Source: Macrotis lagotis
Taxonomy: Eukaryota; Chordata; Mammalia; Peramelemorphia; Peramelidae
DNA: 64,000 nucleotides
Reading direction: 5' to 3'
Assembly: GCF_037893015.1 (NCBI RefSeq)
Contig: NC_133658.1
Coordinates: 286,755,719-286,819,718, forward strand
Shown: in pieces, positions 31,629-64,000 of the stretch
How the letters are laid out: every line of letters starts with the position of its first letter
Position numbering within the stretch: position 1 is the stretch's first letter
Notes under the pieces: generated by a model
What the model was told of the DNA's origin: nothing
The model's input: the letters and a program-made list of their open reading frames with translations, nothing else
Databases searched by the model: none
Position numbers and translations under genes: made by a program

Positions 31629-31781
31629 TTATTTAAGGCTCCAGTATTGACCCCGAAAACTGCTGTGGTCCTCGTGGAAGGTCTCACTGAACTCAATTTC
31701 AGCTTGGCTCCCCACCGACTCCCAGTAGAATAACTGCTGTCCATGGAATTTTACTATCTTCATGTTGCGCAAGTCACGGAT
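31629..31781 (-). CDS. ADAMTS13: ADAMTS13 exon 29: end of CUB2 with stop codon
   Basis: 153 nt. Reads [20 protein letters not shown], then [20 protein letters not shown] and [10 protein letters not shown], then TAA at 31629-31631. Human continues for about 19 more residues after QYWTLQ. AATAAA at 31628-31633 (- strand) overlaps the stop. Confidence 0.95.
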   Translation of the reverse strand: MRDLRNMKIVKFHGQQLFYWESVGSQAEIEFSETFHEDHSSFRGQYWSLK

Positions 31782-34700
31782 CTAGAAGGAAAAAAGAATA
31801 TGAGGCTATGAACCCACATGGAAGTAGCTTTCAGACAAGATCTCCTTATTCCATGTCCCATTTTAAAAGACTGATGTTACTGAGCTACTATGGGGTTGAA
31901 AGAAAACTTGAACCTGTTACTATAAAAATTCAAGGGTTTTTATTTTGATTTGTTTGCTTTTTCTCATGTTTAGAAGAGGGACTACATATGGTGCAGTGCA
32001 GAACAGCTAGATGGTGTAGTGGAGAGAGAGGCCAGAGACTGGAGTCAGTCCAACTACAAACTCAGATATTTACTAAATATACCAAATTTCAAAAAAAAAT
32101 TCACAGAATCAGGGTCATGAGGAGATAATGTCCCTATGAATATCCTCAATTATCTCATAAGGGAAAACCAAAAGTATGTATATTATACTCACTCACTGAC
32201 AACTAGGGTTCAAATGCATTTCAATTATGCTGTAAATTGATTCTAATAAAATAGGGGAAAACCTTCTCTTTTTTGACTCCTCTCTAAAATTCCTTTCTTT
32301 CACTGATGTTCCATTGACTAGAATCTGTAACCAGTAGAGTTGTGCACACAGTAGGCACTTTTCTTTTGAATGAAGTATGTTTGTAGAATTCTAATACTAT
32401 AAGTGACCTCTGAGATCATCATCTCTAACCCTTTCATTTTGAATAAAAGAAAGTGAAATTACTATGGAATTGGATAACTGAGGATAAAAGAGCTATTTCA
32501 TATTTTGTCTTTTAGCCCTGAAACAGACCTCATACATAGTAGGCTCTTAAATGCTTGCTGATTGACTGTTCTCATTTAGCTTTCTGTCTCTAAGACTTAA
32601 CAGGACCTAAAACACTGAGGAGGATAAGAATCCACCTGGTCCTCCCCCTTTTCCTGTTGGCCTCACCAAAATGTAGCTGTCATTAGTCTGATTAGCTTCT
32701 GTCCCCAAATCAATGGTCAGAGCATGAATGGCTATCCGGGCTCCTGGAGCCACATTGATGAAGACTCGGCATCCTTCCTGGTTTCTCACATTCTGGCCCC
32801 GTGGAGGACTCACTATTTCTCCTCTAGGACCAAAGTGTTGTACATCACATTCTGGAGAAGAAAAAGTTTTGAAAAGACAAACCAATCATAGATAGACAAA
32901 TGCTTCAAGAATATGAAAAACACAATAAAATACAATAGAGAGAGCTATATTAACCTACAAAACAATGATAGATTCTATGACTTGTTCTGGCCCAGCCTAA
33001 CTTCTACAGTCAGTTGTTAAAGGATGGGTCATAAGTTTAGAAGGCTAAAAAGTGTGAGGGGAAAAGTCCATTTGTGGTCTTCCTTTATCCTTTCTGTGGG
33101 TAAAAACCATTTCCCTCCCCCTTGGATCTCACATAACACTTTTCCCCTCTTCTTTCATATACCTCTCATATAGTGCTGTGTATTATAGTTGTCTGTATGT
33201 GTATCACAAGAGGCAGTCCAATATAGTAAATAAAGAATTGGCATCAAAAAGAAATTTGTTCAACTCCCATCTCCAGAATATACTGACTGTGTGGTTCTTA
33301 TTGATCTGCATTGGTAGAGGAGGCTTCCTCAAAACTCAATGAAATCACAAATTCAGACTAAAATATATAGAAATGTTTCATCTCCCCTCTCCAGCTTGTC
33401 ACTCTCTTATCTCTAGGTTTTCAGGACACTACTCTTTCCTAGTTTTCCTCCTACCTACCTGATTGCTCCTTCTCTGTCTGCTTTGCTGTATCCTCATCCT
33501 TCAAAGTCCTGTTCTGGGCCCTCTTCTCTGCTACCACTATGCTTCTTTTCTTGGTGATCTCACTGGATTCCATGGATTCAATTACCAACTCTATACTGAT
33601 GATTCTCAAATCTACCTTTCCTTCCTCATGCTTTCTGCTTACCTTCAATATCATATCTCAAAAATTTCAAACTGAATGTTCATTAGACATCTTAAACTCA
33701 ATATATCCAAAACTGAAGTCACTATCTTTCCACCTAAAGCTCCCGTGTGCCTATCTTCCCCTTTATTATAGGTAGCACCAACATCTTCCCTGTCCCTCAG
33801 ACTCACAGCCTAGGAGTCAGCCACACCTATCTCCCCCCTCATATTCAATTTGTTGCCAAGTACTGTCAATTCCACCTTTGCAATATTTCTCAAATCCTCC
33901 TCCTCCTGTGCTCTGACACTGCCACCACCCAAATGCAGGCCCATTGTCTCTTTGTGCCTCAATAGCCTCCTGGTGGGTCAGCCTACCTCAGTTCATCACT
34001 CTGATCCATTCTCCATTTAGCCACCCAAGGGATATTCCTAAAGTGCACGTCTGACCACCTCCTACCTTTTCAACTTTCTCACACCTTATACTTCACTTGC
34101 CTCCATTCTGATCCAATAACACTGGCCTCTTGATTATTCCATTAACAAGGCATTCTAGCTCTGTCTCAGCATTTTTCCTGGATAGCCATCATGCCTGGAA
34201 CTCTTTCACCAATACCACCTATTGACTTTCCTTCTTCCTTTAGTCCTAGCTAAAAATCTCATCTGCATTATTAATATTTTTCTTCAGTCTAAACAATTAA
34301 ATACAAAACAAGTCCAAGTTTGTAGTATTTGCCAAATTCTGCCATGTTGAAATTTTTAACAGTTGATTCTCAAGACTCTGAAGAGATGGTTCCAACATCC
34401 CAGCCCCTCTTCCCCATCTACTCTGATACCTTTGTGATAATTTTCTGTGGCTACTTGACTCCAGTACTGTAGCACTACCCCATTTCCTGGGAATACCAAG
34501 CGTTGTCTCACCACCAAGGTGTTGGTTTTGGAGATGAATGTCACACCTGCCAAATTCTTGCAGGTTTTCCTCCAGGTTAGCCGTCCCCAAAACAGCAGCA
34601 TCTCCCCTAAAATAAGGCAGTGAAGTGGGGTTCAGACATTATTATAAAGCCCTCAATTTAAAGTCTGATTGAGGGCTTAGAGGTAAGAGAATACACAGGT

Positions 34701-37700
34701 TCCAGCTCCAGTTTCTGGGCCACCCCTCACGACCACAAGCACTTCAGCAATATTTTATTAAATGGTAGCACAGCTCTGTTCCCCTTCCTGCTGAGGAAGG
34801 GGAAATAGCCGAGGCATTGGAAAGGGTTCCTTTGTCACCAAGATCAGTTCTATCATTGCTGAGCACTCCAACCTAGAGATTAACTCCTTAAACAATTACA
34901 GACTCAAGCAATCCAAATTCTTGTAAGGATATCCATATGCACAGGCAAAGAAGGACATGAAAGGAAGCTTCAGAGAGAGGGTATAAGACAAGTTAAATGG
35001 TCACAAACAAACCAACACTGCAGTTGAGGGAGCTCTCTAGGACTTGAAAGGCCACCACCTCCCCCAGAGGTCGGCCAATGGCTACTGCACACTTCGCTAC
35101 CCGCATGCCAGTCATGTTGATCCTCCCTGTAGACTCAAGGTATTGCTTTCCACAGATACCTACAGAGGGAGCAAGAACCCACAATGATCACATATGCAAC
35201 TTAGGGACAGAGAAAGGAGAGAGAATAAGGAAATAAATGCTATTTGACTGTACTCAGAGATCTCAGAGCAAGAGTACTCCTGAAAGTTGCTTTATTGGTG
35301 TGGTTTTTTTTTTGTATTTGGTGAGTAATGTGATAAAATACTTTTTAATTGATATTAATTTTAAATCTTCTTCTAGGCTTTATCCTTCCCTTGTTTAGGC
35401 ATTAACATTTGTCTTGTAAAAGGGATCTATTCCTAAAATTATAAAAGGATGCTTTGTTTCTCCACTTTTGAGAATAATTTATGTAGTATTTGTGCTAATT
35501 GTTCTTTAAAAGTTTGGTAGAGGGGTGGCTAGGTGGCGTAGTGGATAAAGCACCGGCCTTGGAGTCAGGAGCACCTGAGTTCAAATCAGACCTCAGACAC
35601 TTAATAATTACCTAGCTATGTGGCCTTGGGCAAACCACTTAACTCCATTTGCCTTGCAAAAACTAAAAAAAAAAAAAAAGTTTGGTAGAATTCTTCTGTA
35701 AATCTATTAGGACCAGGAGGTTTTTCCTCTGGTAGTTTCTTTACAGTTGCTTCATATTCCCTTTTTGAGATTGGATAATTCAAATCGACTATTTGTCTTC
35801 TATTTGATTAATTTAGGTTATTTCACATTTTGGAAGTTATTCCTTTATTTCTCTTATGTTCTTAATTTTGGTAGTGTCATAACTGCATGGTGTGTTCTGA
35901 TAATTTTTTATTATTCTTTCTGATTTTGTTGTGATTGCACTTAGGTTCAGTTGCTATTTTATTTACTTTTTTCAAGTTTTTTGGGTTTTAGTCTCTTTTT
36001 CCTCTAATTTTTTACTATATTCTCATTTGTGCTTTTTTTAGATTTTCTATTTGTTGACTAATTTTTCAAAGTGCATATTAAGTTCATTAATCCTTTCCTT
36101 TTCTATTTTGCTAATTCATGTTTTTACATATATAATTTCTTAGCTGAGTCCAAATTTTGGCAAAAATTTCATCATTATCATTATCTCTCACATAATTATT
36201 TATTGTTTCTATGTTTTATATTTTAACCCATTCATTATTTAGGACTTCATTAGATCTTCATTTGGGTTGACATTTATGAAAAAGGAAGGGAGGGAGAAAA
36301 GAAGGAAGGAAAGAAAACATTCATTAAACACCTATTTTGTGCTAAGCATCATTAAGGGTTTTAGAGATATAATCTCAGTAGATCATTACAACTGTATTAT
36401 TATTATTATTATTATCCCCTTTTACAGTGAGAAAGCTGAGCCAGAAATTAAGTGACTTGAGCAGGGTCATATAGCCAGCAAGTATCCAAGGATGGTGAAC
36501 TCAGATCTTCCTGAGTATAGACTCAGTCTCTCTGTATTGGGCCACCTGGATGATTCTTTAATATCAATCACAACTTAAGGTCTATCCATAGGTTAGAATC
36601 CATAGTTTCATAGATCTAGAGCTGGGAGGGACCTTAGAAGTCATCCAGTCCAACTTCTTCACTTTAAAATGAAACTAAGGTCCAGACAGATTCAATGATT
36701 TGTCTGGGTTCACGACAGAATTGAAATTTCCTCTCAAGTCCTTTGGCCCCAAGTTCAGCTCTTTCCCATGGATCACCCTGTGGTACATGCTTCTTGATTC
36801 ACTAGCAAAGTAAAATTTGGGGCATGTTTTGGGTTGAGAAGATAGTTGCTACTGCCCCATTCCCCTTACTCCCCTCTTCCCCTGGTTTCAAGTTTTCAGC
36901 TTAGCCACAGTAGAAGCAGGGTCTACCCCAAGTTTTTTCTGACTCCCTTGTGAAGGCCATCATTCATCTGAATTGGTTCCAGTTGGAATTTCATCTGATC
37001 AAAAAGAAATTAAACATAACTAGACTTGCCAGGGCTCACTTCCTGCTTTGGAAGTTCCTTGGGTTGAATAGATGAAGAAAGGGGGTGGTAAGGAACAGTC
37101 AGGACTCCAAACTGGGCACTCTCAAAGGTAGGAACAGGAGCTGCTATTGATTGACTTATAGTAGAGGAGACTTCCTCTTGGGCCTTCAGTTTGGGGATGG
37201 CCTGCCTCTCACAGGGTCCAGCTGAGCAGCCCCTCACAGTCACCGGCTTAGGAATGTGCTGACAGAAGATAGCAGGTACTGGAGTCTGTGTCTGATGCGG
37301 TCTGACACAGAAATCATGGCGGCGCTGGATTCCATTCCCACATGAGGCAGAACACTGTAGAGGAAAGGTAGCTAAGTTGTAATATTTGGCAAATAACTGT
37401 CTTAAGGGTAAAACTCATATACCTTACAGGAAAAGGACCAGGATATTGGCATCTGCCTTTGATATTCCTATATCCCCTAAGGCCTTTCCAGTAACCCACT
37501 CTTATCTTCAAACACTCAAGTGGTGAAGCCCTGGGGTTGGCTTCTGCCCCACAGGAAACATATTAAAAGTTTCATGGCTAAGAGAAGATTGCTTCAGAAC
37601 TGAGGACCCCTTGGTGCTGACCATGGAGTGCTTTCTCATGTCGACTCTGCCCAACCCTTTGCTTCCTGTGGTTACCCAAATTGTCCACCAGCTGCTCTTT

Positions 37701-40700
37701 TAAATAGATGGTTCGTGGCACCTCCTGTTTCTCATCTGTCTGCCTGGTTTCACCCTCACTTGCTTGCCCTGATCTTGGGTCCCTGAATACTACTGCTGGC
37801 CCACCAACTAGTCAGGTGGACTACAGCAGAGCTTCCCTTCTCTCAGATCCAGACTCTCAATCCAGTCTTCAGATGTTAATACTGCTACCCCAAGTTCTGA
37901 AACAGACAGAGGGCTATAAATTGGGCTTAAATTTTTTTTCAAATAATTAAAGACCCCAGATGGGAAAACACAAATTTCCTTTCCTGTTTCCAGGAAGCAG
38001 TCCAAAGCTGGTCAAAGTGAATACCTCTGTCCAGGCACTGAAATGCCATTGGTAGGTACAGTCTGCTATGATGCAAGGGATACTAGCTGGGGGCCTCTCC
38101 AGGCCGGCGCAGGCTCCCTCTTCCATCTCTGCCTCTTCTCCATGACTCAGCTGCACACAGATCAGGGAGCGCAGGGCTGTACCCAGTCCACAGCTAGCTG
38201 AGCATGAGCCAGTCCACACTATTTTCCACCTATGTCCAAAAAACATCATTGATGCAGAGGCAGAACTTCATCATCCCATGATTCACAAGGATGTGCTCAG
38301 AATCAGATTCTGAGAGCTGGAAGGAGCTGCAGCTATTACCCAAGTCAGAACAGAAACAGACTTTTACTACATCCCCAACAATATAGTCATGCAGGCCCTG
38401 CTTGAAGACCTCCAGAGATGAGGATCTCATTAGTTGTTGCTGCAAAGTCCCATCCCAATGCCCCACACCTTTAAAAAATACTAATATATTTTTTTAAAGA
38501 TGCTACATATTTGAGAATCCTGGAACATCACGAGGGAAGAAGATTGAGAATTGCAAGGACAATACAAAGATATGCTGGGGATATAAACTGCTGGAAACAT
38601 ATTTTCAAAACTGACTTATGCATAATAAATGGCATAAAAGCCAGGTCTATCTTTAACTATCCACTGTAAAGTAAAAAAAAAAATACAAAAAAAAACAGAG
38701 AAAGCTGTCCAGTGAATCAGGGCAGTCCTGGACAGAGGATTTCAGAAAGATATGATAAGTCTTTAAGATGAGTGAGGTACAATAGGAAAGTAGGGAAGGA
38801 TGGTGAGCTATCCTAGTAGAGGCCAATGAAATCAAGGACCCATTCATACAAAAATATAATTATTAGTAAGTTTTTCCTTATCCTGAGCCAAAATTTGCTT
38901 CCACCTTTTGTTCCTAGTTCTACCCTCTATGGCCAAGCAGAATGAATTGAATCTTTCCTCCCTTCCACAAGAATCTGCTTGAAGATGGCTATCCTGTCTC
39001 CACCAAGTTTTCTCCTCTCTGCGCTAATCAACTTGAATTCCTCTGATTACTCATTATTCATATGACATGATTTCCAGTCCCCTCACTGGTATCATCAGTG
39101 TCCTTCCTGAGAGAGGTGGCACTGAATTAACCCTTGCAGGGACTACTAACCTAGGTGGGCAAGGGTTTAGGTTGCAGGGCTCCTGCTCCTCTGGGCGAGG
39201 CAGCCCTTGGCACTGGATATCAGGCACAATTTCCTCCTCATTCTCCCCAAGAGCCCTGGCACAGTAGAGGATCCTCCGGACAAGCCCTCCTCCACAACTT
39301 ACACTGCAGGATGCCAGCTTATGTCGCCATCTGGTGGAAAGGAGGTGGGCAAAAAAAAAATTAATTCCCCGATATGAAAAGGACAAGACAGACAGAGAGA
39401 GAACGTATAAAGCCCTTTGCAAACCTTACAAGACAATAAAAATGGAATCCAAGACTGACCTTTTATTGCTTCTTAGCCCAAACCCTTTGATTCATAAACT
39501 AAGGTCAATGGAACCCCTCCCATTTTACAAAGGGTGTTATCAGGGACAGTTAGGTGGTACAGTGGATAGAGTACCAGTCCTGGAGTCAGGAGGACCTGAG
39601 TTCAAATTTGACCTCAGACACTTAATAATTACCTAGCTGTGTGACCTAGGGCAAGTCACTTAACCCCATTCCCTTAAACAAAAATTAAAAAAAGAATGCT
39701 AATAAAGGATCATTTTATCTAAGAAAAAAGAGTTAATCTATCTGTACACCCATCACAAGGGACCCTCCCACTTCAGCAGCACAACCATACCAGTTAGGAT
39801 AATTACTTTTCATTCAGAAACAAAATGTACATAGGATACCATTTCTAAATACACATGGGGTCACCAAACTAGCCAATGGGAAACAATTTTTTGGGGGGAT
39901 AGTGTCTATCAAGACACTATCCAGAAGTCCTTTGATAACACTGGTATTAGAACATGAGATTAATGCTGGCCAATTCATCTGACTGATAAATGTGTTATAC
40001 CAGATTTTTTTGCAAGCACAGTTCACAATTTCTGGGGCCCTGGTTTCCCCACCGCTAGATCCAAAACTAAGTAAAAGCCGCCCTCTAATACGTTATAATT
40101 TAAGTCCTGGGGCGGACACTTCCTTCTTGTTGGGATGGATTTAACCTGAAGCCCAGGAGCACACAGGAGGCTAGAGACCTGGCAGGACAAGGCTCTGGAC
40201 TGCAGGACTGGTAGCTGCTAGGCCGTGGCATCCCCCCACATTTGGAATGAGGAAGCTTGATGGTCAGGCCTTTGTTCTGCCTCACACAATGGACAGAGAG
40301 TGGCACTTTTCCCCCTCCGCAGGTCACTGGACAAGGGGCCAGAGCTTTGATCTCCCACCTAAAGAGAAAAAAAAGGAAAGAATGACTGTTAGATAACAGT
40401 AGACTCTCCTTAGAGAACATGTTTCCTTACTACCCTGCTTTGGAAGCTAAAAATGTGAGGTCATCTAAGTGGCACAGTGGACAGAGTACTGGCCCTGGAA
40501 TCAGGAAGACTCATCTTCATGTGTTCAAATACAATCGGAGACATTTACTAGCCATGTGACCCCAGGAAAATCACTTAACCCTGTTTGTCTCAGTTTCCTC
40601 ATCTGTAAAATGAGCTGGAGAAGGAAATGGAAAACCACTCCAGTACCTTTGCCAAGAAAATCTCAAATGGGATCATGGAGATTTATGGCTGAAACCCACT

Positions 40701-43700
40701 GACCTGAACCTTTATCACAGGTTACTGTTTGTAAATATTAAAAGCTCTTTGTAGTCAACTGAGGAATAAATCTTTATATCTAATATTTCTGATAAGGGAC
40801 ATGAATAATATGTATCAGTAGCCACTAAACATTAACTGTCTACCATATACCAGGCCCTATGCCTTAGGGATACAAATAAAAAAAGGAAAGTCCTACCCTC
40901 AAGAAACTTACAATCTAATGGGGAAGGAAATACAGAAAAGCTTCAAAGCTGATAAAGGAAGGGAGGAGCTGGAGGGTACCAGGTGTGGGATTATGATATT
41001 CAGTTAAAACCGAACAGAGTAGCTGGTGGTAAATGAAGACATAGTTGGAAAATTCTGAGCCCTCTACAGAGGGAAGCTTTAGGAAGAGCTTATTGCTCCA
41101 TCCTCCAGACCTCCAGTAAAGAGGGAGGAGACAGTGGAAGGTTCTGATCAATTCCCATGACAAGTTTTCAGAGGATGAGCTTATCCTGCCGGGGGTGGGA
41201 AGGGGATGTATTGTTCAAGTATTCATAGACAACAGAAATATATGTATGAGCAAATGCTAATTCTCAGTAAAGCAAAGAATATGAACCAATGGTTCTCAAA
41301 AGAATTATAAATTATTAACAACTATGTGGGAAAAAATGCCCAAATCACCAATAGCAAGAATAATTTACAGCGATACATACCTAAAGTTTCACCTCATATT
41401 CAGAAAGTTGGAAAAGATAACAAAAGATGGGAAAAGTCAATGAGAAGTTGTAGAATGACAGGTACACTAATGAATTATTAATGGAGAGGGGAATTGGTAT
41501 AACCATCCTAGGAAGCAATTTGTAATTATGTAAATAAAATGACTAAAATGTTGATACCCTCTGACCCAGACATTTCACTGCAGATTTATACTCCAAGGAG
41601 GTCACTGACAAAAAAGCCTCTATATAAACCAAAATGTAGCAGCATTTTTTGTGGTAGCAAAGAACTGAAAATAAAGTAGATATTAATCAATTATTATGGT
41701 ATTTGAATGTAATAGAATATTATTCTGATATACAAAATGATGAAAGTGATGAATATAAAGAAGCATGAAAGGACTTAAATGAAATGATGCAAAATGAAGG
41801 AAATGAGACAGAAAATGTTATACACAATATCTAAAACAATGATTTATCTAAGGAGAACAAGAGTACATGGAAGGGAAAAATCACAGAATAATCAAAGCTA
41901 AATGTAGTGAAATTATAAATACTAAGTTTAACTCAAGAAAGTTGTGATAAGATATATTCCCTATCCTTTGGACAGATGGAGGACCAAGGAACACTGTATA
42001 TAATGTTGATTATTTTTCTTTTGGATATGTTTAATTGAATTTTTGTTCCTCTTTTTCCTCCTAAAAAATTATGATGAAAGAAGACTCACTGCAAAGACCC
42101 TCTGGAAAGAGGTCAGAGAGAAAATGGAGAAATCTAGATGATGTGAAAACAAAAGCTACCAACACATCTATTTTTTAAAGAAATTCTTCAGGGCCAGCTA
42201 GGTGGCACAGTGGATAGAGCACCAGTCCTGGAGTCAGGAGTACCTAAGTTCAAATCCAGCCCCAGACATGTAATAATTACCTAGCTGTGTGACCTTGGGC
42301 AAGTCACTTAACCCCATTGCCTTGCAAAAAACAATAAAAAAAACCAAAAGAAATTCTTCATAATTATGACTTGATGATGTAGTTTTGTTGGTGGTGTTGG
42401 TGCTGATGATTGCGCTGGGGGTAATGCTGGTGGTGATAATAGAGATAGGGCTGATGGTGATGGTGATGGTGATGGTGATGGTGATGGTGATGGTGATGGT
42501 GATGGTGATGGTGATAGTGAGGATACCCTGGAAGAGGAACAACTCCAAATATGAGGAAAGGCAGATGAACTATTTCTTGCTTTACCTAGGTGGACAGGAA
42601 GCAGCATGGCAGACCATCATCTGATTTGCAGGCTGGCTCACTGGGTTACACTTCTCTTCCTGAACCTCTTTCCGGCTGGCAAAGTCCAAACAAATATAGC
42701 GTAGCTCCCTTAAGCCTAGGGGGAAGAAACATAGGGTTCAGGGATTTGATGCTACCTTAGAGTTCATAGAGCTACAAGATTCATGGAGGTCATCTAAACT
42801 CACTTCTTCATTTTTTCAGATAAGTAAATTGAGGCCTAAATAGCTGAGCTAAATTGTATCTTCTTCTGCTCCCACTGGCCATTCTTCAACATAGACTTCT
42901 AGTTAATATAGTAAGTTTATGAGGCCAGTATAAAGAAGTAAGCAAGAACCATAACAAGAAGTAAGATTACAAATGGAAACCTAGAAGTCACATTCAAGCT
43001 ATCTCAAAGATCAAAGGAGTATAATGTACAAATTATCATTTTTAATAAAAATCACATCCCAAGACTATGTGCTAAATCAAAGGAAGTCATCAAGCTCTTC
43101 CTGGAGGGTCTATTGGTTCTATGATATATAAAGCTGAGGAAATTAAAATGTTCTGTCTCTGTCCCATTTTGTCAAGCCACACTCTCTTTGCAGTTCTCCC
43201 TTTGATAGTCTAAAGGTGTAGTTGAAGGAAAACATTAACATCTGCTGCTTGTCTGGAAGCCCCAATCACCTTAACTTGGTGCCATTCCCCCAAAAGATAT
43301 GTCCTTTCCTAAAGGGGAGATTTAATGTCTTCCAAGGGATAAGGGAGACTGGTGGTACTGATTCCCTAACAAAGATTACAAGAGGCAGAAAAGTCCTATA
43401 AAAACAACTGACACGCCTTTATTTTCAGAGGACATGAATGCCAACCCATTTTTCTTTATATAGCCAATTGTAATTCCCCAACTATCCAGACCCCCTCTTT
43501 TCCTGCATGTCAATAAAGAAGGCTCTCCCCCCTCCCCTTTCAGGATTTACTGAGGTAACTAATCTGACCCATTTTGTTAAGTTATATGCTTCATTGTTAA
43601 TAAATTGATTTTGCTTGGAGTATGTATCTCAATTAACCTTTATCAGATTTATTTATTTATTTTTTAGGTTTTTGCAAGGCAAATGGGGTTAAGTGGCTTG

Positions 43701-45107
43701 CCCAAGGCCACACAGCTAGGTAATTATTAAGACCGGATTTGAACCCTGGTACTCCTGACTCCTGGGCCGGTGCTTTAGCCACTACCCCACCTAGCCGCCC
43801 CTATCAGATTTATTTGCAATGAACTTCACCTAAGCTCAGAGATCCACAGTAAGGTCAGCAGAACACCAGATGCTGCTGATAACTAACTTTGAAATGATGT
43901 AGCTTTATTAATGAACTAATCCCAAGGTAGCACAGATAAGTAAGTATTCATCTGTCCCCCACCAAAACACTATAAAAATGAGATCACAAACTCCTCACTC
44001 TTCCATCACCACCTGGGTTCATTCCACCATGTGCTCCCAACTCCAATCCAAGGTTACATGAGTGACTCTTTGCCTCTCTTCCCCACCCTGCCTATCTTCC
44101 TTCACCATCCCCCCCATCCCCATGTCCTCTGCCTCTATACCTTAAAGTGTGATCCAACAAAGCACTGGATCCTGCTATTGGTCTTTCCTGGCAAATACCC
44201 AAAGAATCAGGCATGCCTGCCCCATTTCATAATTCCATAAATTAATTAGTACTTCAATAATCCCATGATTTCCTCCAATTTCTGAAGCTGCAGTCTGAGC
44301 CCAGGTCTTCTGATTCCAAATCTGGACACTCTTGCAACTACATCATGTTGCTTCTTCATATCAATGATATGTTGACATCACCTCTGGTTATATCTTTCTT
44401 GTTAACTAGACTGGTTATATTTCAGCTCCAAGTATCTTGTCTTTTCTTTTTTGGTCCTCCTCTCCTAGTGTCCAGCACTAGCACTTCATAATATTCAATT
44501 TAGCAACCTGAATAAAACTGAACAACTTCCAGAGAAAAGTAAAACTCATTCTAGGAAAGCAAAATCTTCCAGAAGTAGGTAAAAGCCCATGCCAACCATG
44601 GTGGTATCCTTGTGCTATGTCTGGAAACAAATGAAGGTCAACCCTGTTCTGATTTCTCTAGGAACTCTAACTACAAGCATGTTATTAATACAAAAAGAGA
44701 CCTGAATGCAACTCTTTCATTTCGTAAATGAAGAAACTGAGATCCATAGAAGTGACTTGCCCAAGATCATACAAATAGCAGCAGAGCTGAGATTCAACCT
44801 CAGGTCCTCCAATACCAAATCCAGTTGAAAGAGAAGTTTTTAATTGATCTAACTTATTCTGATTCTCATGGGAGCTCTGGTGATCAGAGAGATGAAAAGT
44901 TCATATACCTCAGCTCTTTATATTGAAGTTCCCAAAGATCCTCACCTGTACCACAGGAGACTGAGCATTCTCCAACCAGAGGGCTCCACACATGCACTGT
45001 TAGATTCTCCTTCCAGGAAGCTCCAAATTGGTCCATAGCTTCTTCCAGAAAAGATGCAGGTTCTTGCTGTGACAAAATAAGGAACCCCTCAGCCCCATCA
45101 TAAATGA

Positions 45108-45168
<61 letters not shown>

Positions 45169-48100
45169 AATTGGCTTGGGAAATAAAAAAGACTGAAACT
45201 TTTAAACTTACTGCACCTCCTTCCTGGAATAGATTATTTTCCTCAACCCCTGCCCTTTCCTAGTAATTAAGTACTCTATAAAAATGCCCTCCCAAAGCCT
45301 TCCAAGGAAGAGGCATTTTTCCCATATAAATTCAGGAAATTCATATTTTTGCTTTGTATTCTTTACACAAAGAAATTTGATTAGAAATTTGAGTGATACC
45401 TGATGATAGAATATGAGGGTTTGGAGTCCAACTAACAATGGATAGCATTCACATGGCATGTTGCGTTTGCAAAAGTTTTATATATTATATATCATTTGAC
45501 CTTCGTAAGAACCCTGGGAGGTAGGTATTGTACATATAAATAAGCTAAGGTTAAGTGACTTGCCCCAGGGTCACACTGCTAGTTAAGTATCTGAGGTCAG
45601 ATTCAAAACCAAATCTTACAGTATTCCAGCCCAGGGGGCAGACAGTCACTACACATGGCAAGAGGTGAGGAGGTTTTTCTTCCATAGAGCATAGCCTGTC
45701 ATCCACCAGGCCTTCTAGGTCATCCCCTTCTTGTATGCATGTCACATTCCTCTGGGCTATACCCAGACCACAGGCGGAAGAGCATGGACCAGGTTTTGAC
45801 ACCTTCCACCTGAAGACAGAATGTAAGAGTCAGGAGGTCCCATTTTTCTCTCTTTATGACTCTACTGAACCCCAAAGACAGAGAATGTCAGAATAAAAAA
45901 AAATAAGAAACTAAGACACTTCTCATCTTATCTCAAAAAAACCCCACCATTCCTGAAAGAAGATTGATAACAATAATAGCCTGTAGTTTAGGGTTTGCAA
46001 AGCACCATATAGATGTTATCTCATTTGATTCTTCCCACTCCTTGTGAGGTAGGTGCTGTTATTATCCCTATTTCACACATGAGGAAACTGAGGCTGACTT
46101 GCCACAGGTAAGACAGTTAAGTATCTGAAACAGGATTCAAACTAAGGTCTATTGGAATGTCTATTCCAATATGCTGTCTACTCTATCACTTAGAAGTGGT
46201 ATGGAAGATGAAAAAGTCTTCCTACAAGTTAGATCTAAAACAAGTATGGAGAGAGAATCTCAAGGAATCATGGAGGTGTCAGGCAAGACTGATCCTATGG
46301 AAAACTCCCTGAGGAGAAGGATTATTTTGTTCAGGTCTTTGTATCTCCTAGAACTACAGAGCCTTTCAAATAATTAGTATTTAATTAACATCTGTGAATT
46401 AAATAGAAGTGCACTAGGTAGGGTGATTTGAAAGATAGTCTCATTTATCCTACATAGGAAGGGTTACAAGGACATGCCTATCTCTGATATCTCTTACCTA
46501 TTGTCCTGTTATTGAATGACTTTCCTTTCCCACCCAGACCACCTTTAATGTCTCTCATAGAACAGGCAATAAAGGCAGGGGATGATGACTCCAGATGACA
46601 GCTTTTCAAATGAATATATGTCACCCAAGAATATCTTACTAGCTCTTTCTAACTAGTACATTTTGTTTGGGGAATAAAAGAGAAAGTTGAACAGGTTAGC
46701 TGGGTGACAGACACTCTGATGAAATGATACAAGAAAAGGAAATTCTAGTGGGCAAAAGAGAGTAAAGGGAAAGAAAAGAAGGATGGCAGAGAAGAGCCCT
46801 CAGTAAAGAAAGGCAGCTCTCTGGGCAGCTGTTTTGGCAGTGGCTAATAGAATACCTCTGGTATTCTGAGGGCAGGGAGGATGGTAAAGATAGTTAAGAG
46901 GAATGAGGAACAAAGAGGAAAGGACCCCAAGTCATAGTCAATCTAAGGTGTCCCATTTCACAATTCTGCCCACAGCTGGACCCATTACCTGGTAAGGCAG
47001 AGCTGGGGGTTGCAGGACTCAGTAGCAATGGGCTGGAGAGAAGCTTTGCAGTAGGATTCCGGTAACGTCAGGGTAAGGTTGCCCTCTACCTTCACACAAC
47101 TCACTGTCCGTTCTCTCACTCCTCCTCCACAGGTTGTGCTACAAGGACCAAAGTCTCCTGCTGTCCAACTAAGAAGGGAGGATGAGAGCCAGTGAGGCTT
47201 GGCCTTACCCTGGAAAAATTCCTGGGGCCTGGCTGGCTTGGGCAGACTCCCAAATAGTTCTGCTGCCTCCAGTCAATCAATAATGAACCTGGTAAAGTGG
47301 ACCAGGCTAGGGCTGGGAAACTAAGTTCCTCACATCTTGGAGTGGGGTATTTTTTTCCCTTTTGTTTGACTGCAGGCTACTGCCCTATAGAGTGAGAAAA
47401 TCAGGACAATTGCCTCAGGATCTATGCTTTGATAATTCCAAAGCTTTTATGGTTAGGTGGAGATTCAAGGAGTAGGTAGCAAAAAAGGAGAATGAAGTTG
47501 AAACAGACTTGAGAATCCTATACACATAATCCCAACCAAAGCTTCTATTTGTGACATCTTAATTCTCTCCAGTGTGAACACTTGGGAAAGGGGGTAAGAA
47601 ATACTCAGTAAAATCTAGCCCTAGCACCTGCCCTTAGGCATAATCCTCATCAGCTGCCTATATAGTTAAGTAGTAACATAAGTAAAGGAATGGAAATGAG
47701 ACTGACAGGTGAGAACTAAGCAGCCATTTATCTTCTGCTAAGAGAATTATAAAATCAAAATCATATCAACAGCACTCACTATGGTGGGCATGGCCCAGGG
47801 ACACAGAGTTCCTCCCATGGAAGGGGCTTCATAGTCCCCCCACAGTAGACATCATCAGTCCACTTGTTCTGGGCTTGGTCAAAGCAGCTATAATTCATTT
47901 GACGTACCCCTAAGAAGGAAAACAACATAAGGAAAGGTCTATCTAAGCTCTTCTGCCGAAGCTTTTAGGGTAAGTTCCATCTAGATCCTTAAAGAAAGAA
48001 GTAGATCCTTTTCTGCTGGTGAAGGAAGTAAAATATCAGCTTCTCAATCCTCACCTTCCCCACAGCTTACAGAACAGGTCCCAGATACCACTGCCCACAC

Positions 48101-48326
48101 CCAGGTCTGCTGCTGCTTAGGCTTGAAGTAGCTGAAAGTGATCTCAGGGCTGGTGAGGTTTCCATATTCGTTCCCATACTTTCTGTAAACCTGCATCAGA
48201 ATAGGAAGGAAGAGTTTAAAATAAACTGAGAGTTCAGGAAAATGGAGAATGAATCATTCAGGGATCAGTTCCTTTTTAAATGAAAATTTTTAATTGACAT
48301 CATTTGTTTTTATGTCACCTCTTTCC

Positions 48327-51300: not shown

Positions 51301-53870
51301 GGCCAAGTCAATATAATAAAAATGACAATTCTATATAAATTAATTTTTCATTGCTGTACCAATCAGACTACAAAAAAATTCTTCTATAGACCTAGAAGGA
51401 AAAAAATAACAGAATTCATCTGGAAGAACAAATAGTCAAAAATATCAAAGGAATCAATGGAATAAAATGTGAAGGAAAGCAGCCTAGTTCACTAGATTTC
51501 AAACCATATTACAAAGTGGTTATCATTAAAACAATCTGGTACTGGATAAGAAATAGAATGATGAACAGTGGAACAGATAAGATATACAATACATAATAGC
51601 AAATTACCATGGTAATCTAGTTTTTTATAAACCCAAAGATCCAAGATCTGAGGGCATGAACTCCACATCTGACAAAAATTGATGGGAAAACTGGAAATTA
51701 GTTTGGCAGAAACTAGGCAGGTTGCTATCTCTAAGGAGGTAAGGGTAGAGAGTAGTCCCTTTGTGAATTCAAGTTACTCTGTAAGGACCACCATCAATAT
51801 TCTTATTTACCTCAGCACGTTATATATCCAACAACCATCTTAGATGACTTCTATTAAAAATTACTTTCCCAGGGCAGCTAAGTGGCACAGTGGATTGAGC
51901 ACAGGACCTGGAGTCAGGAGAACCTGAATTTAAATTCAGCCTCAGACACATAATAATTACCTAGCTGTGTGACCTTGGGCAAGTCACTTAACCCCACTGC
52001 CTTGCAAAAAAAAATTATTTTCCTAAAAATACAATATTGATTTTATTCCTCTGAGACTTATAAATCCCCATGTCTGGTTCAGAATAGCAAACAGGAGGGA
52101 GGACAAACTTTTAACAAATGTTATCCAGCTTTTACTACCTTATCTACCATCATTTTCATCATCACCTGTATTTCAATGTCCTCTTGGGTGGGTCCTCTGA
52201 TGTGGATCTCCTCTAAGAGGGGCATCTTTTCCTCGGTGAGGAACATCTTGTACTCAATTTGATTGTCTTCCAGGACTGAGGGGTAGGTGGTGTTTAACGA
52301 GATGCTTCTCTTCCCAGCCACCACATACTGTCCTCTTACCTTCACAGCTATGGTTCAGAAAAGTGTTAACATTAAAGGAAGAATATTAGCCATCTGTTTC
52401 TACTTTCTGTTCACAGAAAACTCTGGTCATCCAGGAATGAGTCTTAACCAGAAAGCCTTAGGGAATGGAGTCAGAGATGTGAGCAGGATCAATGGAAGTA
52501 GAAAGGGAAAAGTTACAACAAAAGAATTACAAGTTGGGATACTCTCTCAAATGACTGGTCACTGCAACTAAGAGTTAAGTCAGCTGGGATTTGTTCCTTC
52601 TGTGAATCCCATGGGCAGTATGATATAATGGAAAAGACAACAGATTTGTGGACAGACAATCTTGAGTTAGAATTCTGGCACTAATCAGTTTGCCAACCTG
52701 CAAAATAAAGGACAGCTGTACCTATAATCCTTTGAAAGTTGAAATATTTTCACTACAGTGTGAAATGTGCCAGTGATTGGCACATAGTCAACACTTAATA
52801 AATGCTTTTCATTCATGCAATGCTCACAAATAGTGCTAACTTCAATGGGATATTTACAGATATTATATGATGAGTTGTGGGCAAGATCCAGAAGGGCTAA
52901 CTAATTATGATGTTGCCCTTTTTTTTCCTGCCTACTTACCCAGGTGTGTGAAGAGAGGTTTCTGGTTGATTATATGCACAGTGGTAAAATTAGGAGGAAT
53001 TGTCAAGAATGTGACATACTCTAGGAGGAAATTCAAATAGGAGATGGGTCAGAGCCTGTGGAATTTATCTGGATGCTTCTTGTTTTCTCACTAGTACACT
53101 AATGAAAAGGAATCTTCTGTTAAGGAAAAGCACCATTCACAAGTTGGGAAAGGTTCTGCAGTACCTTGGGCCCTCCCTCCAGAGTAAGTGCCGCTCACTC
53201 TGCTACATGTGGTGTTGTCTCCCCCACAGACCTGGCACACATCCCTCACGTGTCCAGAATCCATTCTGCCATCACATCCAAATGCCTGATCAAAAGAGAA
53301 GGCAAAAAAATTGGATTCTGGATGAAACAAGCTTAGGACCTGACCTTCCCCTCTTTCCCCTTCCCAGGGTCATCTCAGACCCACCAAGATCAGTAGATGG
53401 GAAGACTCATCACTCCTGGGGGTACCTCCTTCCTTGCATTTACCTTTAACCCTGGCTGCTTGACTGCTTACAAGATTTAGATAATATGGCAGTCAACAAC
53501 TTTATTCCTTTCTATGAGATGGAGCACACCAGGCCTTACCATCTGCCCTGCCACAGAACCCTCCAATCCTCCAGACTTTACCAGTTTCCTTTCTCTATAC
53601 CTTTGCACTGTTATCAATCTACTTATCTAACCTGGGGACTAATGGGTCTCATCATCTACCCCAATGCTTTACTCATAGGATTTCTGGGCCTTTTTATTAA
53701 CCTGCAGCCAAACTCTTTTTTTAATGCATTATCTCCCCCAATTAGACTGTAAGCTCCTTGAGAGCAAGGACTCATTCACTTTTCTATTATTATTCCCAAA
53801 GCTGGCCACCTGGTCAGCACTCAATAAATTCTCATTCATTCATACATATACATATAAATATATATATATG

Positions 53871-53946
<76 letters not shown>

Positions 53947-54222
53947 CATAAAGGCAGTCTGGGCAAGTGTACAAATGGTGTGATTTGAAAGGAGGGCAAA
54001 GGGGATGATACCAAAGGCAAATATCACTTCTTTTGACATTGTAACTTGGATTTAGGAAAAACAGACAATTAGTATTTTATTAAGTGTCTTCTGTGTACAT
54101 GGCATTGTGCTAAGCACTGGGGGATACAAAAAGAGGCCAAAAAATAGTCCCTGCCCTCAGGGAGCTTACATTCTAATTGGAGAATCAAAAATTCCTTCAA
54201 GCTTCAGTCTGTTTGTCACACA

Positions 54223-54263
<41 letters not shown>

Positions 54264-56392
54264 GCCTTACATACCCTACATCTGCCCATCACACAGAGGC
54301 TCATGGTCCCCTCTGCCTGGTGATCTGCAGACACACATCGAGTTCCATCCAAGAAACTTTCCCCACGGCTCACTACGAAATTCTTTCCAGAGGCCCAGCA
54401 CATGTGCTTGCACAGATTATTTCCTAGGAAGGCAGAGATGTGAAAGAATCTGTACTATGCTACCTGATACCTAAGTAGAAGAAGAAAAGTGAAGGGAGCA
54501 GTGACAGCCTATGAAGGCCAGTTGGGGGTACGCCAGAGCTTTCATCATCTGGCCTTAGAAGTAGGTTTAGCTTGAAGATTGCTGAATTGGAAGCTATTTT
54601 TTAAGCTCCCATTTTTGTGTTGTAACAGAAGATACCTCAATATAAAAAGTATAAGACAAAAGTCCTGAATGAATGTTCGTTTATTTATTATACCTGTAGA
54701 GAAGACTTTAAAGTTTAGAATTAGGTTTGATATAATTGAGTTAAATCATGTCTCCCTGAGGGGAAAAAAAGGATATGAATAGTTCGCAAAAGAAAAAATG
54801 TAAACCATTAACAAACAGCCATAGGACATCTCCATATCATCAATGGCAATAAAAAAATGTCACTCAAAACAACCTGGAGGTTTTATTTCATTCCCAGGGA
54901 ATTGAAAAGATAACAAAACATAGAGTGATCAGTGTTGGAAAGACTGGAAAATCAGGTACACTAATGCATTGTTGGTGGAGCTATGAGTTTGCATTCTTAA
55001 AAACAATTTGGAATAATGCAAAAAAAAAAAAGCTGACTGAATTTACCTAGCTGTGTGATCTTGGGCAAATCACTCAACGCCATTGCCTTTCAAAAAAGAG
55101 AGTAGACTGAATGTCAATATCTTTTGACTCAGAGATCCCACCTGTAAGACATACTCCCCTAAGGACATGACTGACAAAGAAAGTTTCCACCAAATTTATA
55201 GTAGCATTGTTGTAGTAGTCAATAAATGGAAACAAAATAGATTCCTGTCTATTGGGAAATGTCTAAACAAATTGTGACATGTTATTGTGTGATAAGAAAC
55301 GTTAAATATGCTGAATACAGAGAAGCATGGAAAGACTTACACAAACTCATGTAAAATGAAATAAGCAGTCAAGAAAACAATCAACAAGTAACTACAGGTT
55401 GGCTAGGTGGCGCAGTGGATAGAGCACCAGCCCTGGAGTCAGGAGGACCTGAGTTCAAATCTGGCCTCAGACACTTAATAATTAATAATTACCTAGCTGT
55501 GTGGCCTTGGGCAAGCCACTTAACCTCCATTGCCTTGCAAAAAAAACTAAAAAAAACAACTAACTACAACAATGAAAACAGAAAGAGCAAAAACCACAAA
55601 ACAACTGAAAAAAAATTAATGCCGCAAAATAACACAGAGTACAGGGTGGCTAGGTGGAGTAGTGGATAAAGCACCAGCCCTGGAGTCAGGAGTACCTGGG
55701 TTCAAATCTGGTCTCAGACACTTAATAATTACCTAGCTGTGTGGCCTTGGGCAAGCCACTTAACCCTGTTTGCCTTGCAAAAACCTAAAAAAAAATAATA
55801 ATAGAGTAAACTTGGCTCTAAAGAAGAGATAAAGGAAGATGCTTACCCACTGTTCTGAAGTAGTGATAGGTTCAGGAAGATCCACAAGTGTGGAATATTA
55901 CATATAACATCAGATTTTTTAAAAATGTATTGATCAGTTTTGTTTGAGTTTTCCTTCTTTTTCTTAATTTTAAAATTCTTTGTTATAAGAGATTACTGGA
56001 GAAGAAGGGAGTGAGGGGAATACAGTAATGTATAGTTTAAAGAATTGTTATATATTTAGACCATGGATTGTCCTAAAAGCATTTGAGGTTTTTTGTAGGA
56101 AAGTTTGTGTTTTTTCTTTTTGTTATTCTTATATTCCTAAACCATGAGGCCCCATCCAAACTCCCTGAGTGATGTAACTATAGAGGTAATGACCACTTGT
56201 GTGGAAGAAAGGATACCTTACTCTAGGAATGTATAGGTAAGGAGGTAGACTCCAACCCAAGGGCATGAAAACAGACCCAGACCCTAACCCAAGGGCATGA
56301 GAACAGACCCTTATTTGTATGTAGCAATCTGTAAACTTCCACAGTAAGCATTGGAATAAGCCAACAGAAGGGAGCAGCAGGCCTACAAGCAA

Positions 56393-56442
<50 letters not shown>

Positions 56443-59400
56443 TTCCTTTCTTTCCTTCCTTCTATACCCTCTCAACCAATTGTAAAGCTCTAATATCCTA
56501 ACTTCTCAACTCAGAAATTTGATCGATAGGTAAAACCTAGTCTTCCCACTAGGGGATGTGGAAATTAACTAAAAATGAATTAAAAACTTAAAAAGAGGGG
56601 TGGCTAGGTGGCACAGTGGATAAAGCACCGGCCCTAGAGTCAGGAGTACCTGGGTTCAAATCTGGTCTCAGACACTTAGCTGTGTGGCCTTGGGCAAGCC
56701 ACTTAACCCCATTTGCCTTGCAAAAAAACTAAAAAAAAAAAAAAACTTAAAAAGCTTAAAACATAATGGGGAAGTGAGGAAAATCATTAGGAATGCCATA
56801 AATCATGAGAGAAGCTAACATTTTCCTTGCAAATCAAGGATTGCCCAGAGCTTCTAAAACAAGAGGACCATTTTCTTTCTGAGTTTGCTTCCCAAGTTTA
56901 GACCTTTAATACAACTAGGACTGGCAATAGAGCTGAATTCTGATGTCTGGCAAATGCAAGTACCCAGGACCTCAATGAGCAACTGTTTTCCTACACTGAG
57001 GCCAAGGTTAATCCCCAACATTCTAAAATTTAACTTTAATAAATGTGGCTTCTAATACATAGGTTCTGTACATGTTCTTTCTCATCTTTCTAGGTGTGAG
57101 CACTAACACAATAAAATAACCCACTTGCTCCTAAGTAATGGGAAAAATAAGCAGAACTGAATACCATTAAGTCCTCTCAACTCCCAATACAGTTGCTGAT
57201 AAGGGCCTATACCCCAAAATGTCTCCAGTATACTCTGTTATTCTATTCTTATTTTATAGTCTTAGAAAGACTTCTAGAGGAGTCACTATTAAGTAACTAG
57301 TTATATAAGTAGGGACATATCTCTAGTACATGTCATAAATGCTTGTTGATTGAGTGATCCCATGAACTGGAGGAGGCTTTAGAAACTACCTTATCAAATC
57401 AACTCATTTTACAAATGAAGATTATGAAGTCCAAAAATGTAAAGTAACTTGCCCAAAGTCACACTGGTAATAGGAGACAGAGCTGACTTTAAATCCAATA
57501 CTCTTGCCAATGTACCACAAAGAATGGAACACAAGGTTTAGAGGACCCAGATAGGGGAGATGGAAGGACACAAAGATAAATTCCAGCAGGGCAGCCACAA
57601 TACTGTGAGTCACAGAGAAAAGATGACCTCACTTCTCTCCTGGTATCTTCATCCCCTTCCTCTACCTTGGCTATACTGAGCAGCTGACTTCCAGCTGTAG
57701 AAGGTGGGGACCCCTGGAGTGAGGTAAAGTGGCTTCCCATCAGTTGCAGAGCATTGCTGAGCCATGAACTCTAGCTGGGTTTTCACACAAGCCTGCAGAA
57801 AAGAGGAACAGAGGCGATCCAGAGGACACAGAAAGTACACAAGACTATTGAGAGGAAAGCTCCAATTATTTAAATTTAGTCAAGAAAACTGGTCAGAAAA
57901 AAAAAATGGAGAATCCTCCAAAAAGACTTGGTGTAGCTCAGCTTCTCATGTAGTTCATAATAGATAGCATTAAGGCCTTTCTAGGATGAGCCTCAATGTG
58001 TCTCAAGTTAGTTTTTTTATATTATCTACTCCCTTAAAGTCCTGGAAGATAAGAGGATCTTGGGGTGCTTTGCCTGGGGAAGAGAGAATGATGAAGGCAT
58101 AACAGCTTTCTTCAGATACCTGAAGGGTATACTTATTTTATATAGCTCTGGAAAACAAAATTAAGATGCACAGATGAAAGTTAAGAGGCAGATTGCAACT
58201 CATTTCAAGGGGGGGGGGGGGGGGGGACTCTTAAACTGTGCCTTTATGAAAGGGAGTAAAGCTCCTGCAGATGGCAGCACAGATGTCCCTGCTTCTCCCT
58301 ACCCATCCAGGAGTATAGGATTTAGTCCTTTCTTATCTCTATTAGTTCAGAATTTCAGTAGGCAATTTTTGTGCTGGGAGAAAGACTATAATGACCTCTA
58401 GGGTCTTGATTAGTTAAACATTCACTGCAATGACTTGGCGCCTCCTGATAATAGGATTCAGGTTAACAGAGGTCTCTACCCACCAACTGATCTAAAAGGT
58501 GCATCCCTACCTGAGTGTTGCACAGCTCAGCCTTAAGGTCAGCACCTACACAGTCACGACCACCAAAGGCAGGTCTGAAAAGTACCATCAGGCAGAGTCA
58601 GGAGGGAAAGCAATGTGGACATCTTCCTTGTCATAATGTACCTACAGCCCTGCTCTTAGATAAGGGAAGAGCCTGAGATGTTCTCCCAGGCCCATCCAGT
58701 CCCAGGAATGAAGGTTCCATGTACCTGGGGTTGTTGCACTGCCTTCTTCTGGTGATGACTCCTCCTCCACAGGTTCGAGAGCAAGAGCTTGGAGGAGCCC
58801 AACTAGACCACTGTCCGTGTACCAAGGAAACTGGTGTCAACTCTTCCAGAGAACGACAGTGGCCCTTAGAGCACCACTAGAATTAAAAAAAAAAAAAAAA
58901 ACTATGTTGAAAATAGTGTTTAAAATGTCCATATATCCTTTGATCAAGAGATTCTACTGCTAAACATATGCTTCGAGTAGGGAGGGAGGGAGGAAAGAGA
59001 GACAGAGAAAGACAGAGAGAGAGAGACAGAAATTAAGACAGAGAGAGAGAAACGGAGGGAGGGAGGGAGGGAGGAAGGAAGGAAGGAAAAGAAAGGGAAG
59101 AAAGATAAATACATCAACATATTTGTAATAGTATTTTTCATTTGGAGAAGTGCTAAATAAATTATGGTACACAAATATAATGGAATATTACCTTCTATAG
59201 AAACAGTGACTAAAACGAACACAGAGAAGCATGGAAAGAATTAGATGAACTGACAAAGAAAGAAGCAAAGCCAGAAAAACAACATTCACAGACTATAACA
59301 ATTAAATAGAACAATCCAACAAAATTGAGACCGAGTACTGCAAAATTATGACAAAGTTGGCCCCACAGAAAGGAGGTGAAGAGGCAGTTCTATCCACCTT

Positions 59401-62400
59401 TGCATACGGAACTATGGAAATGGAACATTGCATAAAATGGGTTAGTTTTTTATTCTTTTTTTTTTTTTGGTTATACTTTCTTACAACGGACAGATCTTTG
59501 GAAGGGGGGTGGGGAGAGAAGGAAGAATACAATTGGGTGATTTTTTTTTAAAACATACTAATTGGCCTAGGTATGTTTTTTTTTTCTAAACCCACATTTC
59601 TACAAGGAAGCAAATAGTCAACACACAAAAAAAGGTGTCATTCATCTGTCAGTTCACATACTCTGTTGAGTGGTGAGGCCAGGGATAGGGGCCTCCTTGC
59701 TGTTCTTTCCATAAGACACTCTTTCCTCTGTCTCTGGGCACTTTCTGTCACTTTTGCCCAGACCTAGAATGCTCTCCCTCTCCCTCTCCCTCTCTAGCTC
59801 CTGGTTTCCCTGGCTTCTTTCAAACCTGGCTAACCCTTACCTTCTGTAAAAAAGCCTTTACCAGTTTCCCTTTATCATAATAAACTCATTATCCTTCCTC
59901 CAAACCCTAATTTCCTGATTTCCCTATTCTTGTAGAAAGTGTATCACCATTCTCTCAGTTACTCTGACTTCCAGCCTAGGTGTCATACTAAATTCTTCAC
60001 TCTTTTTCCTCACCCTTCCCCCACCAGAAAATCAGTAGGCAAGTCGTATCATTTCCTAGGACACTTCAACCACTCTAGTACAGATCCTCATCCACTCATG
60101 CCTGGACTATTGTGATAGCTGGTTGATTGGTCTCCTAGACTCAAATCTTTCCTCACCCTAATCCAATCAGTTGTCAAAATAATATTCCTAAAAATGCAGA
60201 TCCAATCACAGAACCATCACCCCATTCAATGAATTTTAGTAGTTCTCTATTACTTCAAGGATCAAATATAAAATCTTCTATTGGGCTTTGAAAGTCTTTC
60301 ATCATCTGATCCAGTGTTCTGACAGCTTCCTCCCCACTTGTTCACTACAACCCATCAATGCTGTTCTCCTTCCTGTTCTTGTCACAAAACTCCAGCTCTG
60401 ACTCCAAGCTTTTTCTCTTTGGATTTTTTTTTAAGGTTTTTGCAAGGCAAATGGAATTAAGTGGCTTGCCCAAGGCCACACAGCTAGGTAATTATTAAGT
60501 GTCTGAGGTCGGATTTGAACTCAGATGCTCCTGACTCCAGGGCGAGTGCTCTATCCACAGCGCCACCTAGCCGCCTCTACTCCAAGCTTTTTCATTGATT
60601 GTCTCCCACGTTTGTATGGAATGTGCTCTCTCCTTATCTCTGCCTTCTGGAATCCCTGGCTTTCTTCAAGACTCAGCTAAAATCCTACCTTCTGCAAAAA
60701 GTTTTTCCCAGTCCTTCTTAATATTACTGCCTTCCCCTAAAGATTGCCCACCTTCATTTATGCTTTATGTCATCTTTCCCATTTTATTGTGAGTCTTTGG
60801 GAGCAGAGATCCCCCCTTTTTGCCTTTCTTTGTCTCCCTAACGATTAACACAGTGTCAAGGATATAGTAGGTATTTTAAAAATGCTTGCTCCTTGACGCA
60901 AAGCAAAATTCTTGGTGCTTCTTCTAGTAAACTCCTTGAGGACAAAACTGTTAGTTAAACAGCTAAATAAGAGAGCTGTTATCAATCAACCAATAAGAAA
61001 AAAAATATTAGTTTTAACATATACCTCTTTAATGAAATTTTCTTATGAGATGTATTTGTTGAATATCAGTCACAGTACTCTAAGAAAATTGGAGGATATT
61101 TTCAGCTGTGTGGTTGTCAAATGTAGGTTAGAGTTGACTAAGTTCAGGGAAAAACATTTAGCAATCTATTTAAAAGTATGCCTTCTGTGGTATATTTGCA
61201 TTAAAGTTTTCTTTAAAAGCATTTATATTCTACAGAATACTATTCAAAAATGGATATGAGTTCAACCATGCCTTTATCATTTATTATTTTATGCAGCTGC
61301 TTGTCCACCACTCTGCAGTAGAATGTAAGCCTTTGCCATTGTTTAATCTTCGATATCTTTGTACAAGTGTACATAATAGATGCTTAATAGTTGTTTATTT
61401 TTCAGCTCTTTGTAACTATAAGTCAGCTAATGAAATTAGACTTGACTATATAAGAGGGTACAGAACAGAAAAGTAACTGATTGGAATGTTTACAGAAAGG
61501 GATGAGATAAGACAGCCACTTTTCCGACCTTGGAGGCACCAAATAGGATGGAAAAAAAAGTATCAACTGAGCAATAACTTCCCAGTCCATCACTAAGCTT
61601 CCTGAAAGGAAGTAATCAGGAAAGTAGACTAGATGAAAAAGATCAGTCCTAGTTAACCTTGTAAATTAAAAAGTTGATCATCTGCCTTACCAAATTCTTT
61701 CCTTCTACACCAAGCTAGTGTACCAGGTCCAGTCATCCTTGGGCAATCTGATAAAAAATCAATTTCTGAACTACAAAGATAAGATCTGACTGGAATTTGG
61801 TAGTTCCCACAAACTCAGCCTAAAGTAGAGATCTGTCTACATTAAGGAGAGATCCCACTCAATGAGAGAGACATGGAAACGGACAAAGAGAAGTCCAACA
61901 CTAACAGTATGGTGGTGTACCAGGAGGATCTTTTTCTCAAACAACTATTTCTCACCCTGCAGACTGAGTTAACTCTGCCTGACTAGAGGAATCCTCTTTA
62001 AACATTCAATGCAAACCTTGCTTTTTACCTTATTGATTCCACATTCAGTTCCATCTAGGAGTGGTATAAGGATGCGGCTACAGCTGGTTTGGTCCTGAGG
62101 GTCTGTATGGCAGGAGAGAACTTGGCACATATCCTGAGAAAGGATGAGAGAAAGCTGTAAGTTTGATATCACACTTTTAAGGCCCATATTTGTATGGGCT
62201 ACAGGGTCAGGGTACAAAGCTAGTTCTTCTTTCTAGGTTCTGTGGGGTTGGTGATGCCAGGTTACTCTGCAGCAGGGATCCTGATTACCATGGAGAGACA
62301 TGTAGGGAACTGGAAACTACCAGAAAGGCAATGGGATACAACAGCATTGGGTTTAGAATCTTAAATATTCACTGGTTCTGAGATCCTGGGTAAATCACTA

Positions 62401-63875: not shown

Positions 63876-64000
63876 CTACAAAAAAAGAAAAAGAAAAAAG
63901 ACAGCTCATAGGGACAAGGCACAGGTAGGGCAAACAGGACAGATGCAAACATGGTCTCTCCCACCTTTGAGAGCCCTTAGGAGTTTTCCAAGTTGCTTTT
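63876..64000 (-). other. ADAMTS13: ADAMTS13 intron 5 end, no exon
   Basis: No frame like the human exon 5 end (GHADLVLYITR) is present, so exon 5 lies outside the window. Confidence 0.7.

Follow-up and report, generated by a model that had tools for sequence, protein, structure and literature searches.

A predicted ninth thrombospondin repeat exon in ADAMTS13 of the marsupial Macrotis lagotis

INTRODUCTION

ADAMTS13 is missing in thrombotic thrombocytopenic purpura. The tail of the enzyme, with its linkers, helps to hold it in a latent state. Published accounts, including PMC8051872 and PMC9958085, assign one plus seven TSP1 repeats to human ADAMTS13. Variation in repeat number as such is already reported for ADAMTS13: in other vertebrates the number of repeats between the spacer and the CUB domains varies while latency is kept, and CUB-spacer latency is described as extending from fish to mammals even though TSP repeat number varies appreciably (PMC8051872, which cites Muia et al. 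2019). The surprise of an additional repeat is limited because such variation among vertebrates is on record. No paper on marsupial ADAMTS13 repeats appeared, by title or abstract start, among the literature matches listed.

Here we analyze a candidate additional repeat exon, called X, in a 64,000-nucleotide stretch of Macrotis lagotis DNA (contig NC_133658.1; hereafter, the window). A naturally occurring nine-repeat enzyme that largely conserves the latency interface would offer a convenient means of testing whether the length of the tail matters, and it would also aid in reconstructing how the tail repeats evolved.

RESULTS AND DISCUSSION

Gene layout and placement of exon X

ADAMTS13 lies on the minus strand, with metalloprotease-to-spacer blocks running from 67.3 kb (beyond the window) down to 48.1 kb and the T2 to T8 and CUB1-2 blocks continuing down to 31.6 kb (Table 1). 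Exon X is an open frame between the counterparts of human repeats T5 and T6, with an acceptor at 40358 (TTTTTTTTCTCTTTAG|GTGGGAG) and a donor after 40179 (CCTGCCAG|GTCTCT, that is, CAG|GTCTCT). It is in phase 2 at both ends, as are the T3 and T6 exons, and the T2 to T8 exons join in one frame whether X is included or omitted. The original prediction of an intact exon, placed between the counterparts of human exons 22 and 23 and matching both neighbors in phase, was thus borne out: its coordinates were exact, AG precedes the exon, and GT follows it.

Table 1. Coordinates of ADAMTS13 features in the window.
Feature	Coordinates	Strand	Remarks
Exon X, predicted ninth TSP1 repeat	40179..40358	-	180 nt, phase 2-2
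Possible in-frame extension of X	40146..40178	-	33 nt; downstream donor CAG|GTTAAA; 11 stop-free codons; putative
T5 second exon	42586..42715	-	130 nt; upstream neighbor of X
T5 first exon and most of T4-T5 linker	44946..45066	-	
T6 exon	39151..39330	-	180 nt; downstream neighbor of X; 75% identity to human T6 (working sequence)
T7 exon and start of T8	38025..38229	-	
T8 exon and start of T8-CUB1 linker	37040..37354	-	3' end tentative
T4 exon	45620..45809	-	190 nt
T3 exon	46989..47168	-	180 nt; X-equivalent place in first block
T2 second exon	47780..47909	-	130 nt
Spacer end and first part of T2	48055..48190	-	
CUB1 and CUB2 coding blocks	31632..35097	-	35097-35011, 34607-34431, 32852-32655, 31781-31632
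Metalloprotease (from HEIGH exon), disintegrin, T1, Cys-rich and spacer coding blocks	52163..63886	-	

The predicted product of X is 60 amino acids long and carries six cysteines in TSR order (positions 9, 13, 24, 40, 52, and 57), all invariant across five aligned repeats. It also carries CPVTCG, an O-fucose-type motif, which fits the CxxS/TCG motif of TSP1 repeats. Against Pfam PF19030 (TSP1_ADAMTS), X scored 40.5 bits (E 3.4e-10; curated cut-off, 23.8), and the match spanned profile positions 1 to 55 of 55, in keeping with the predicted complete six-Cys repeat. A leave-X-out profile built from 14 other ADAMTS13 repeats of human (working sequence) and marsupial scored X at 43.8 bits (E 3e-13), against 4.1 bits for the highest of five reversed-frame control matches. 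By this profile the window holds nine TSP1 repeats, several of them split across two exons, and no tenth or relic repeat rose above the reversed-frame controls.

The AlphaFold model of X with four sister repeats had a pLDDT of 84 and a pTM of 0.51. In Foldseek, the best eight matches to the X model were TSR-bearing proteins, matched weakly (best E 0.2), and none of 62 PDB matches reached an E of 0.001 or less. A sequence search of the PDB with X gave no match up to E 1; the same search with the T8 open reading frame retrieved five sequences, thrombospondin-1 and circumsporozoite chains, all weakly.

Two other features of the layout were recorded. At the T8-CUB1 junction (35140-37040, minus strand), the frame closest to human (SS, then ACG) would need a very poor donor, CTA|GTTATG, and a better donor, GAA|GTGAGC, requires another acceptor. 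The T5-X intron contains 11.5 copies of a 6-nt tandem repeat, TGATGG (42452-42520), which on the minus strand lies inside an open, His-rich stretch that follows an acceptor-like CTTCCAG.

Comparison with human ADAMTS13

The human protein was represented by a working sequence of 1,427 residues, which agrees with the published residue at 22 of 22 and 18 of 18 positions in two comparisons and contains all six compared peptides of PMC9958085. Among the compared positions, the anchors N667 and L1221 flank T2 to T8, so there is no room for another 60-residue repeat in the human stretch.

The marsupial gene is the same gene as human ADAMTS13: T1 to T8 and both CUB domains align one to one, and the zinc motif is kept, split over two exons (HEIGH and SFGIDHDG). 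Identity between the repeats of the human working sequence and their window counterparts ranged from 45 to 85%, with T4 lowest (T1, 85%; T2, 56%; T3, 57%; T4, 45%; T5, 54%; T6, 75%; T7, 63%; T8, 71%). In contrast, X had no counterpart among T1 to T8 of the human working sequence, all of which paired elsewhere. Human ADAMTS13 thus lacks a repeat between T5 and T6 where the marsupial gene has X, which agrees with the original claim of eight human repeats with none at this place and with the published one plus seven. Nine repeats are no bar to membership in ADAMTS13, because repeat number is reported to vary among vertebrates.

Marsupial T4 keeps six cysteines and reads CSSACG; T4 of the human working sequence reads CTSAGG and is without some canonical cysteines. 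In neither species does T4 have Ser or Thr at the O-fucose place of the motif.

Origin and age of exon X

A protein search of the genome with X gave at least 21 matches at E values up to 10. The next after X itself were T3 (E 1.4e-6, 37% identity) and T6 (E 2.2e-5, 39%) of ADAMTS13, and matches outside ADAMTS13, judged from the match table alone, had E values of 0.005 and worse. With T3 and T6 of ADAMTS13 as its closest relatives in the genome, X is, on sequence grounds, a native ADAMTS13 exon encoding a predicted ninth TSP1 repeat, and shuffling from another ADAMTS gene was rejected for the same reason. No retrocopy or second copy of X was present among the genome matches listed, the next best being 37% identical.

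T3 and T6 share with X the form of a 180-nt, phase 2-2 exon but are only 38 to 47% identical to it by global alignment and are not recent copies. The best such identities were 47% with human T6, 44% with marsupial T6, and 38% with T3 in both species, which upheld the low similarity to neighboring repeats noted originally. When X and 500 bases on each side were used in blastn, 6 of 88 nonself rows touched the exon, all over at most 26 bases and at E 1.1 or worse; none of these lay at another TSP1 exon, and a recent duplication of a neighbor was rejected on this ground.

A phase-1 intron interrupts T2 and T5 at an identical position (CGxG), and in both blocks the 130-nt exon precedes one of 180 nt in phase 2-2, giving lengths of 130-180-190 (T2b-T3-T4) versus 130-180-180-205 (T5b-X-T6-T7). 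These sizes suggest a block duplication in which X would hold the place of T3 and T6 would be a further such repeat. A tree of the repeats (15 rows, 60 columns) joined T2 with T5 (89/97) and T4 with T7 (95/100), but only 2 of its 12 inner branches were well supported, and it missed the human-marsupial pairs of T3, T6, and T7. The approximately unbiased test for X as sister gave p-AU values of 0.37 for marsupial T6, 0.16 for T3, 0.04 for T5, and 0.02 for T7; the tree does not reject a recent origin of X with marsupial T6 or T3 as sister.

Human and marsupial T6 differ at 14 aligned sites; of these, X agreed with marsupial at 3, human at 3, and neither at 8. At the 26 such sites in T3, the counts were 5, 3, and 18. 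The even split at T6 sites gives no sign of a marsupial-only copy, the site counts favor a duplication before the lineages parted, and the roughly equal distance of X from human and marsupial T6 indicates that X probably predates their split. A caveat is that X is about as similar to T6 as the members of the least similar orthologous pair (T4) are to each other, so that a younger copy that evolved fast could look old. The original prediction had allowed either an ancestral exon lost toward humans or an early gain; of these, loss is better supported, short of proof, by the equal distance to both T6 repeats and the 3:3 sites. From sequence comparison, then, X probably predates the human-marsupial split and was lost toward humans, a loss that we infer because the repeat tree is too weak to decide.

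We consider it reasonably likely that X is a genuine coding exon that dates from an early block duplication or shortly after it, before the split, and was lost toward humans. By this account, an early duplication of the tail block would have turned T2-T3-T4 into T5-X/T6-T7, X would have arisen at that time or shortly afterward, ahead of the parting of the marsupial and human lineages, and it would then have disappeared on the lineage to humans. A bolder version, which we put forward only as speculation, is that the mammalian ancestor had an enzyme with nine repeats arranged as two duplicated blocks, that X was lost toward humans, and that in marsupials it became a regulated cassette giving two tail lengths.

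Splice sites and rival explanations

The original prediction described a good acceptor and a GT donor. The acceptor is excellent, with pyrimidines at 19 of 19 positions of the tract, and the GT is present, but few donors in the gene are weaker. CAG|GTCTCT scored -2.2 on a donor matrix (percentile 0.69 among GTs on the strand), versus 2.7 to 6.8 for six other tail donors (T2a, T2b, T3, T5a, T5b, and T6), all at percentile 0.96 or more; only 3% of donors drawn from the matrix scored as low as that of X. In a ranking of the best GT near each block end, the T4 donor scored 1.6 and the T7 donor -0.1. For X this ranking chose another GT (last exon base 40165; score, -1.9; third weakest of 27), and the best GT near the end of X was matched or beaten by 47% of 4,367 random control stretches. 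An alternative donor 33 nt downstream scored -0.4 and would add 11 codons in frame.

Some transcripts may skip X, since it is frame neutral and its donor is weak. A possible but doubtful reading is accordingly that X is a real, old cassette exon that is partly included, giving eight- and nine-repeat forms or a third form through the donor 33 nt downstream. The combination of a weak donor with a full polypyrimidine tract speaks for it, as does a frame that holds with X, without X, and with the in-frame alternative donor. However, a donor that also scores -2.2, TTG|GTTTGT, seems to serve the CUB1a exon, and because this exon is needed for CUB1, a low score is no proof of skipping. The cassette reading is compatible with an old exon lost toward humans, our preferred explanation, and differs from it in the extent to which X would be used. 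The same donor, which falls within the range of random GTs, might instead mark X as a relic exon, unspliced or dead only recently, in which the donor has been the first part to decay. We think this quite improbable, since X retains its frame, its W, all six cysteines, the CG motif, and an excellent acceptor. In a simulation of neutral decay (2:1 transitions, 0.12 indels per substitution, 80% of indels frameshifts), 2% of copies kept the frame, the W, and six cysteines at 0.10 substitutions per site and 0.4% did so at 0.15, which argues against long neutral decay.

A gain within the marsupial lineage, in which T6 (or T3) was duplicated and the copy then diverged fast, would account for the fact that T6 adjoins X, has an exon of equal size, and is nearest to it by identity, and the grouping of X with marsupial T6 was not rejected by the tree. 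Against this stand the even split at T6 sites, an identity of X to marsupial T6 no higher than to human T6, and the lack of residual DNA similarity to T6; we judge a marsupial gain unlikely. That X is an artifact of assembly hardly merits belief. No evidence in its favor was found, the 94-kb joined stretch contains no N, and the next best genome match, at 37% identity, is too distant for X to be a known repeat copied into the wrong place.

Tail length and latency

X is predicted to fold as a TSR and would extend the tail by one module; it may be O-fucosylated at CPVTCG. The lengthening of the distal tail that was originally proposed holds on this prediction, but an effect on latency, which that proposal implied, is not favored. 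Of 10 compared CUB contact residues named in PMC8051872, 9 are unchanged (W1245, L1248, W1250, K1252, R1272, R1326, R1361, E1387, and E1389); the tenth, H1364, is replaced by R at a position described there as poorly conserved. All 10 compared residues of the CUB1-CUB2 interface are unchanged. Among the six covered spacer residues, a set that excludes R568, L591, F592, Y661, and Y665 are unchanged, and L637 and R660 are replaced by M and K, respectively. The T4-T5 linker is 28 residues long in both the marsupial and the human working sequence. X therefore probably lengthens the tail and leaves latency intact, given the 9 of 10 unchanged contacts and the latency reported despite variable repeat numbers. 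With most CUB-spacer contacts preserved, and with flexible linkers in other parts of the tail that would allow fold-back, latency should persist.

Individual substitutions relative to human were also seen outside X. The spacer Lys aligned to R660 is encoded at 48179-48181 (minus strand); position 660 is Arg or Lys across species (PMC8051872), and R660K is, according to a paper title, one of five changes in a pre-activated ADAMTS13 variant. In a metalloprotease exon, Asp252 of the "gatekeeper triad" is replaced by Gly (63005-63007, minus strand), with R193 and D217 kept; the triad is called perfectly conserved between species in PMC6706451. In T1 (58634-58876, minus strand), Ser399, which bears an O-linked glycan in the human crystal structure, is replaced by Thr, and in CUB1 (34431-34607, minus strand) Cys1275 is replaced by Leu.
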